Notes under the pieces: model-generated
Told to the model about the DNA's origin: nothing
Database searches by the model: none
Seen by the model: only the letters and a program-made list of their open reading frames with translations
Position numbers and translations under genes: made by a program
Source of the DNA: a virus
DNA length: 21,989 nucleotides
Virus record (IMG/VR): IMGVR_UViG_3300044695_003381
Coordinates: 1-21,989 of that record
Reading direction: 5' to 3' (one strand)
In this document: one piece after another, positions 7,429 to 8,688 of the stretch
Numbering within the stretch: the first letter of the stretch is position 1
How the letters are laid out: each line of letters opens with the position of its first letter

Positions 7429-8361
7429 TTATTTGAATTTTGGTTTTAAATCATTGATAGTAATCGTTCTAGTAGTATGGTCGGTGTATGCGTTTTTATC
7501 ATATACAATATGATATGATTCGACTATTCTATAATCGTTTCTATCTTTGCATACTTGAGTAACAATATCTTGATATAAGTTCAATTTCAATAAATCAACA
7601 ATATTATTATTTTTCTTTATGTCAAAAACTACTACTTTGCTTTCGTTTGAACAAATTAAATCGGGTATTCTAACAGAATATTTACCATCAATTTCCAAAG
7701 AAAAATACACTTGATCTGATACATTACTAAATAACTCATTGCAAATAGACTTCACTATAAATTCTTCCTTTTTAGATTGTTTTGATGCATTAACGCCTGT
7801 TTGAAACGTATTTGATTTCATATCAATAGCGTAACATTCTTGTCCATAAACTTCAAATAGAAACTCATATAGCACAGAAGCCATAATAAAAGTAATACCA
7901 TAATGATTCCTAAAATCGTTTAAATATGTTTTAGACCAAATGTAATCATTGCAAAATTGATGAAATGATTGTAACTCTGTTACATCCTTATAATTATAGC
8001 TTGTATGTCTATAATCTTCATTTCTATAATCACTACAACCAACAAAATTAAAATTTTTAATGTACTTTAACTGAGCACCGCAAATGCAATAATGTGTACG
8101 TACATTGTTTTTAACATCGTTGATAATGTTATTGTTATCTATTGATAATGATATACTACTATCATATTGTTCTTTGTATTTATTATACTTTTTTTCAAGA
8201 TGGATAAGGTAGTAATCCTCATGTTTACGAATTAAATCGTTAATGTTTTTTGCACAATAGTCAGCAGATAATTGTTTCTTTTCACTACCTGCACCATAAA
8301 CCTTTTTTTTAAAGTTGGCTACTTCTTCAGCAGTCATAACTTTTATTTTTGATAGAACCAT
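7429..8361 (-). CDS. Zinc-finger plus PD-(D/E)XK nuclease (310 aa)
   Basis: The C-terminal part has a nuclease core: an early Glu (KKEEFIVKSICNEL), then VRIPDLICS with Asp234 and VVVFDIKKN with Asp247-x-Lys249. The middle has CICGAQL...FNFVGCSDYR (Cys92, Cys94, Cys109), closely resembling the zinc fingers of type IA topoisomerase tails (CxxCG...FxGCSxYP) but with one Cys missing or shifted. The start is taken as ATG at 8361, because the upstream TTG lies within a terminator-like hairpin. The structured RNA upstream ends only 4 nt before this ATG, so expression may depend on read-through. The primase gene follows after 1 nt. A role in replication or DNA-end processing is inferred. Confidence 0.68.
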   Translation of the reverse strand: MVLSKIKVMTAEEVANFKKKVYGAGSEKKQLSADYCAKNINDLIRKHEDYYLIHLEKKYNKYKEQYDSSISLSIDNNNIINDVKNNVRTHYCICGAQLKYIKNFNFVGCSDYRNEDYRHTSYNYKDVTELQSFHQFCNDYIWSKTYLNDFRNHYGITFIMASVLYEFLFEVYGQECYAIDMKSNTFQTGVNASKQSKKEEFIVKSICNELFSNVSDQVYFSLEIDGKYSVRIPDLICSNESKVVVFDIKKNNNIVDLLKLNLYQDIVTQVCKDRNDYRIVESYHIVYDKNAYTDHTTRTITINDLKPKFK

Positions 8362-8365
8362 AAAT

Positions 8366-8480
8366 AAAAAACCCTTCAAGAAGTCACCAGTGAGAGCCTA
8401 CTTAGTAGGTGGCAACCCCTTGAAGGGCGTGTAAATTGTTATTGATTAGACGCCTCTCACAGCATCAATTAATTAAAGAA
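8366..8480 (-). ncRNA. Structured RNA or attenuator leader with interleaved helices
   Basis: A promoter ends at 8487, so a transcript of about 115 nt would end in TTTTTT at 8371-8366. In minus-strand order the pairing segments are GTGAGAG (8460-8454), GGCGT/ACGCC (8454-8450 with 8430-8426), CCCTTCAAG (8427-8419), CCTAC-TTA-type hairpin (8409-8397), CTCTCAC (8396-8390) and CTTGAAGGG (8380-8372). GTGAGAG pairs with CTCTCAC (7 bp) and CCCTTCAAG with CTTGAAGGG (9 bp); these two helices interleave, giving an H-type pseudoknot or two exclusive states. The second helix plus the T-tract acts as an intrinsic terminator 4 nt before the nuclease ATG. It may be a stand-alone small RNA or a riboregulator. 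It matches no riboswitch class I know. Confidence 0.6.
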
Positions 8481-8486
8481 CTACCG

Positions 8487-8517
8487 CAAATATACTACAA
8501 CCTAATCAAAGTTCCAA
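8487..8517 (-). promoter_or_regulatory. Promoter of the structured RNA
   Basis: The minus strand reads TTGG (8517-8514), a 19-nt spacer and TATATTTG (8494-8487), a close fit to the Bacteroidota promoter. The -7 box begins directly after the TAG stop of the zinc-ribbon gene. Transcription should begin near 8480. Confidence 0.6.
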
Positions 8518-8668
8518 GTATTTTTTTATCTAAATACTTATCCCTCTCATACTTTTTCTTACACTCGCTACAACGGCTATCTAATCCATCAAGCATTCCT
8601 TTCATCTTGTAAAACTCTCGTGACGCTTTAGGTTCAAGACATTGTTTGCATATTTTCAAAGTATTCAT
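8495..8668 (-). CDS. Small zinc-ribbon protein (57 aa)
   Basis: ATG at 8668, stop TAG at 8497-8495. The product starts MNTLKICKQCLEPKASREFY and has two CxxC pairs, CKQC (7-10) and CSEC (33-36), separated by a F-Y-x-x-x-G-x-x-D-G-L segment. This is the treble-clef metal-binding arrangement seen at the N-terminus of HNH/endonuclease VII-like proteins and in stand-alone small phage proteins. No HNH catalytic part is present, so it is more likely a nucleic-acid-binding protein than an enzyme. The -33 region of the downstream RNA promoter lies inside its last codons. Confidence 0.7.
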   Translation of the reverse strand: MNTLKICKQCLEPKASREFYKMKGMLDGLDSRCSECKKKYERDKYLDKKILGTLIRL

Positions 8669-8688
8669 CAAGTTGTTTTAAAAAGGGA

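Follow-up and report, generated by a model that had tools for sequence, protein, structure and literature searches.

This locus raises the question of what kind of RNA is encoded between a promoter and the start codon of a nuclease-like phage gene, and whether it is a stand-alone RNA or a leader that controls the gene behind it. The window, the whole stretch of DNA that was analysed, is a phage fragment of 21,989 nt whose minus strand holds nearly all genes. A 117-nt predicted RNA on the minus strand sits between the ORF at 8495-8671 and the ORF at 7429-8361. The original prediction had placed here a promoter, interleaved helices of 7 and 9 bp, two hairpins and a T-tract ending 4 nt before an ATG, and each was found on the minus strand where it had been located. 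The features of the region, in the order of transcription, are these.

8495-8671: upstream small ORF, HNH/endonuclease-VII-like
8487-8517, minus strand: promoter of the Bacteroidetes type (TTG 8517-8515, 20 nt, TATATTTG 8494-8487); from the sequence, and retained in relatives whose RNA otherwise differs
8449-8466, minus strand: HP1, the 5' hairpin, with the stem GATGC (8466-8462) / GCGTC (8453-8449); MFE fold, with compensatory changes among type I relatives
8454-8460, minus strand: P1, the 7-nt kissing strand GTGAGAG within the HP1 loop, complement of 8396-8390
8428-8448, minus strand: A-rich linker joining both hairpins
8419-8427, minus strand: P2 5' strand CCCTTCAAG, first half of the terminator stem; sequence, fold and covariation
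8410-8418, minus strand: P2 extension, or P3 5' strand, GGGTTGCCA, with its partner at 8389-8381; MFE fold
8397-8409, minus strand: apical hairpin CCTAC-TAA-GTAGG; MFE fold, an insertion absent from same-locus relatives
8390-8396, minus strand: P1', the 7-nt kissing strand CTCTCAC, complementary to P1; sequence, same-locus relatives and covariation
8381-8389, minus strand: P3, or P2 extension, 3' strand TGGTGACTT; MFE fold
8372-8380, minus strand: P2 3' strand CTTGAAGGG, second half of the terminator stem; sequence, fold and covariation
8366-8371, minus strand: T-tract TTTTTT, predicted intrinsic terminator end; relatives have a T-run directly after P2'
7429-8361, minus strand: downstream ORF of 310 aa, ATG 8361-8359, 4 nt past the T-tract; nuclease-like by eye (IPDL...FDIKK)

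The TAnnTTTG box is the flavobacterial sigma-A -7 box and occupies positions -12 to -5 (PMC9723704), which places the predicted start near 8482. The 310-aa ORF at 7429-8361 has no match in Pfam. The layout had been taken to be of the pseudoknot type. Its interleaved helices are present, and the MFE fold arranges them as kissing hairpins with the complements in two hairpins. The first hairpin (GATGC/GCGTC) carries GTGAGAG in its loop. The second is one long stem, CCCTTCAAGGGGTTGCCA with TGGTGACTTCTTGAAGGG, topped by an apical hairpin and leaving CTCTCAC unpaired; the 9-bp helix CCCTTCAAG/CTTGAAGGG is prolonged here by GGGTTGCCA/TGGTGACTT to 18 bp in total. Because GTGAGAG lies in the first loop and CTCTCAC toward the apex of the second hairpin, the contact would be a loop-loop (kissing) interaction and not a plain two-helix pseudoknot. 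The modeled element is better described as two kissing hairpins, of which the second would be the terminator. By sequence and fold, a predicted intrinsic terminator hairpin with its U-run is present between the promoter and the start codon. A simple terminator scan did not flag the window element because the loop limit of the scan is 8 nt, and no alternative antiterminator was apparent in its MFE or centroid fold.

The fold of the 126-nt segment has a z of -4.2, and 0/200 shuffles were as stable. Dinucleotide shuffling produced some pseudoknot of this kind with a T-run in 73/3000 sequences (2.4%), and 7/3000 (0.2%) scored as high as the window element. Neither strand of the 22-kb window has a second such layout (P1≥7, P2≥8). 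The case from the window element alone is moderate, and the homologs turn it decisive.

Same-locus relatives were retrieved via the upstream SSB-like protein; a protein search with the primase gave no IMG/VR relatives. In the same-locus relatives the promoter and layout are kept and the sequence is quite different. Their kissing pairs are GTGCGAG/CTCGCAC (L007), GTTGCGG/CCGCAAC (L008), GTTGCAG/CTGCAAC (L009) and TTAAGGG/CCCTTAA (L010 and L002). The complement is exactly the loop of the second hairpin in L007 and L010 and lies inside that loop in L008 and L009. The window and L002 have a common downstream gene (96% identical) and different RNAs of the same class, and L002 and L010 have a common RNA and different genes. 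The RNA and the gene are thus swapped independently, which points to a gene-independent leader and led to the rejection of a riboswitch for the downstream gene. The stretch that separates the SSB-like gene from the primase region (window 8495-8671; L002 3195-3374; L007, L008 and L010) is the swap site: near-identical phages differ there in the small ORFs preceding the RNA and in the gene that follows it. On the minus strand of L010 near 700-860, some 140 bases contain several repeats of the GGTGTGACAT type, which may be binding sites or an origin.

Further members were sought with a pairing-blind pattern in which only the promoter and the terminator end were fixed (TATATTTGCRG N70-100 RGGGTTTTTTA). 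It matched 20 stretches in IMG/VR, 14 of them distinct. The program found the crossing fold in 12/14 distinct phage matches versus 0-12% in shuffles, and a thirteenth match (L076) has the fold by eye. The pattern match L078 is an ordinary terminator and was rejected as a class member. The identical pattern gave 12 matches in 84,980 bacterial and archaeal genomes with the fold in 0/12, and a bacterial origin of the class was rejected on this result. Two replicate patterns had the fold in 12/27 matches and, among the matches listed, in 46/63, each versus about 8%. The class is abundant, since the last replicate scan alone has at least 63 matches. When a descriptor was run over every promoter-like site in 1.2 Mb, it gave 25 distinct matches at 1554 sites versus 2 at 1397 in the reversed sequence. 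The loci it found include those found by the pattern, and the window element was also recovered; the descriptor matches L019, L115 and L078 look like false positives. The first pattern tried, TATATTTGCAG..ACAAACTT, matched mostly coding DNA and gave real elements only in the already known L007 and L008. A DNA similarity search of reference phages with the window element and a type I element yielded chance or terminator-sized matches only.

Compensatory changes were the check proposed in the original prediction, and they were found in both helices among relatives. Eighteen elements were chosen by location or pattern, not by pairing, and their P1 and P2 segments were joined via artificial spacers. 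All cells were paired (100%), a figure that is partly by choice because the segments were placed by fold and P2 was the most G+C-rich 6 bp; the score was 1.276 versus 0.258 for shuffled sets (0/500). In P1 of these elements, all 6 pairs counted had changes on both sides. In a natural alignment, 13 type I members were 97.3% paired versus 72.1%, with slid controls at 32-50%. Changes on both sides occurred in 21/28 of its pairs, all four helices were supported and the kissing helix was 100% paired. Because the fold was a selection criterion for these 13 members, the independent evidence is the enrichment in the pattern searches. The HP1 and P3 stems were longer than in shuffles (p=0.0005 each; 28 elements for the HP1 stem around P1).

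A covariance model of the type I elements (R1), built from three nested helices, matched Cellulophaga phage phi18:3 (E=2.7e-5) and the same-locus relatives L007 (E=0.001) and L009 (E=0.02). It had no match to the window element at E≤1; the window element carries the apical insertion. Three features define the class, namely the promoter, complementarity of the HP1 loop to the apex of the second hairpin, and a T-run after the base of that hairpin; the window element has all three. R1 matched 0/296 genomes of one phylum, a set without a positive control, and neither Bacteroides phage B124-14 nor the scanned part of Polaribacter phage P12002L has an element. A type I subgroup (many of L180-L254) retains ANNAUA on the 3' side of P1 within the HP1 loop, together with an internal loop, UGAA/GGAU, that resembles tandem G-A pairs.

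The original prediction held that no described class has this layout. This was borne out by Rfam 15, in which no family reached the gathering threshold in the window element or its relatives; two tRNAs elsewhere were the only matches at that score in the window or the searched relatives. A search of the window and L002 elements up to E=10 gave chance-level matches only. The apparent absence from catalogs is explained by a sequence that turns over while the fold stays. Near-identical phages, reference phages and many IMG/VR contigs keep the layout with different matching loops, which argues for a real RNA class. Judged from sequence, it is a real, widespread class of predicted RNAs outside Rfam in dozens of Bacteroidetes phages.

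The element is present without RNA annotation in Flavobacterium phages 11b (33621+) and FCL-2 (37475+), the elemo phages, and the Cellulophaga phages phi18:3, phi46:3 (2965- and 22095+) and phi13:2 (3060-3232- and 23462+). The annotated hypothetical CDS at 152-271 in elemoA_2-5C (L132) overlaps the promoter and 5' part of its element and is unlikely to be a real gene. Three elemo phages of one Flavobacterium host strain have the loops TGAGAGC, GTGAGATG and GTGGAGG at a single locus. Between elemoA and elemoA_2-5C, from one host strain, the linker is almost unchanged and the terminator is kept, whereas the interiors of both flanking hairpins differ; the string TGAGA is still common to their loops. 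Phages phi18:3 and phi13:2 have a common promoter and unrelated RNAs. Five genomes hold two elements each, and the loops within a genome are unrelated. The 98-nt RNAs of L202 and L204 have five differences, four of which make up two compensated pairs within the kissing loops. Most close pairs have identical loops, and accelerated loop evolution as a general rule is unsupported by them.

Position relative to genes bears on whether the RNA is a leader. P1 is 6-9 bp long and starts a median of 11 nt after TTTG (n=83), near +7, which makes HP1 the 5' end of the RNA. The P1-P2 spacer is 14-41 nt in relatives, and P2 ends a median of 91 nt after TTTG. In nearly all copies, 5-55 nt separate the end of the element from the same-strand start codon that follows. 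Among the matches listed in the replicate sets, the median distance from P2 to the next same-strand ATG is 19 nt; an ATG lies within 120 nt in 51/54 elements, and 3/54 have no ORF start there. The gaps are mostly 11-26 nt, too short for a second promoter of this kind. With a stem and U-run placed after the promoter and ahead of the start codon, and in most cases too little space for a further promoter, the layout suggests a leader that would terminate part of the transcripts. A stand-alone RNA and a terminating leader had both been proposed; the leader is favored because the spacing to a same-strand start codon recurs in nearly every copy, and a leader function is likely on this positional evidence. 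The specific tie to the nuclease and primase genes did not hold. The downstream genes include primases (DUF3987, PriCT/BT4734-like), a DEAD helicase, RepO-like proteins, HNH endonucleases and small unknowns. In three phage groups (L062:14270-14761, L034:2718-3206, L110:2400-2849) the element is followed immediately by an HNH endonuclease gene, and phi13:2 and phi19:3 keep the RNA with different sequence behind it.

We infer transcription start, termination, readthrough and action in trans from sequence, and the following scheme is a proposal. Transcription would begin a few bases before HP1, which would fold first and display a loop sequence of 6-9 nt. The second hairpin would then present the exact complement in its apical loop, its base and the U's forming an intrinsic terminator, and the loop-loop kiss would lock the leader. 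Most transcripts would probably stop at the U-tract, leaving a short RNA 75-120 nt long, and polymerase readthrough would allow expression of the downstream gene. Because HP1 would be exposed before its cis partner is complete, short RNA that has built up could in addition make the kissing contact in trans with a newly made copy. The exact self-complementarity of the loops, their turnover and their swapping suggest that they serve recognition, and recognition in trans is possible. The most likely use would be that each RNA controls a single gene in a self-limiting way, the loop sequence acting as its address tag. A promoter-proximal attenuator leader whose kissing loops may let the terminated RNA recognize its own kind for such control is our preferred reading, held tentatively and at a little short of an even chance. 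Neutral compensatory drift speaks against it in that drift also predicts orthogonal loops within one genome.

A stand-alone small RNA gene, whose loops act on other phage or host RNAs and whose neighbor is driven from upstream promoters, is possible but unlikely. It would suit an RNA of 75-120 nt that is compact and highly structured, has its own promoter and a strong terminator, and swaps independently of both neighbors. Such a gene would not need a same-strand start codon, yet one nearly always lies 5-55 nt behind the terminator; GTGAGAG occurs once in the 22-kb window, at the element, and nowhere else; and the mutual complementarity of the loops would mask them as seeds. We regard as doubtful a purely structural 5' UTR that shields the 5' ends of early mRNAs, or offers an unstructured U-rich start region to non-Shine-Dalgarno ribosomes, while the loops drift and stay paired. 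Neutral compensation would explain the loop variety, and the placement before unrelated genes and the unchanged loops of most close pairs fit as well. Against this, a G+C stem followed directly by T5-T8 is a terminator signature that would cost expression, a simple hairpin would suffice for protection, and slow compensation would not change both hairpin interiors around an almost unchanged linker, as in elemoA and elemoA_2-5C.

The nearly invariant unpaired letters of the 13-member type I alignment could point to a riboswitch-like attenuator, in which letters such as ANNAUA of the HP1 loop and the UGAA/GGAU that separates P2 from P3 bind a metabolite, a host factor or RNA polymerase. This is quite improbable: the window RNA and many other members lack these letters, the downstream genes have no common function, and no Rfam riboswitch matched. 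Chance inverted repeats around an ordinary terminator are hardly credible; about 2% of the window-element shuffles yield some crossing helix and a T-run, but covariation and enrichment in independent sets already contradict this explanation. An extension of the attenuator reading is an RNA-only self-recognition system of Bacteroidetes phages, in which a 6-9 nt loop code would shut off (or license) readthrough of own-type leaders, diversify, be exchanged among phages that share hosts and avoid cross-talk, both among the RNAs of competing phages and among those of separate genes within one phage. We consider this extension speculative and rather unlikely.

The proposed working principle, attenuation with loop-loop recognition, is already known. 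Phage P4, a satellite and prophage of Enterobacteria, makes the CI immunity RNA, a short RNA from the leader of the alpha replication operon; its pairing partner is a target sequence present twice in the longer leader, and internal complementarity with a short specificity sequence sets termination. Both are phage leaders before replication genes. The complements of the kissing leader, unlike those of CI RNA, lie in two adjacent hairpin loops, one in the terminator, and two different sets are possible per genome. The Pistol self-cleaving ribozyme is a small RNA whose 5' hairpin loop pairs with a downstream internal segment, whereas in the kissing leader the pairing strand is in an apical loop and the RNA ends in a U-tract; HDV-like and pistol ribozymes, candidates because of the layout, were rejected for want of any Rfam match. 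Attenuators of the pT181 type have a 5' UTR hairpin, loop-loop recognition, an intrinsic terminator and specificity set by the loops (PMC4878617). The hairpin, loop-loop pairing and terminator are common to the kissing leader, but pT181 uses a separate antisense transcript and a separate antiterminator helix, whereas in the kissing leader one transcript contains both complements, and no antiterminator was apparent in the MFE or centroid fold of the window element. IsrK RNA of prophage Gifsy-1 is likewise a short RNA with its own promoter and terminator; some transcripts continue into the genes downstream, and the short RNA then works in trans on this readthrough mRNA (PMC4825925). IsrK activates translation at a single prophage locus, and no kissing-loop layout is described for it (PMC4825925). 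The STAXI motif (Weinberg 2010), in the available part of its report, is a pseudoknotted RNA whose neighbors include genes for single-strand binding protein and for other DNA-handling functions (PMC2864571). The pseudoknot is tandemly repeated, and that part describes no promoter-kissing-terminator layout (PMC2864571).

Kissing leaders would offer a direct handle on early-gene timing in Bacteroidetes phages. The elemo phages and the Cellulophaga phi13:2/phi18:3 pair render the self-recognition idea directly testable, and natural orthogonal kissing-loop leaders could become parts for Bacteroidetes genetics. In L074, L068, L133 and others, the kissing sequences GTGGAG, GTGAGA and GGCTSGAC each reappear on different backbones, and the loop types may be a limited set.
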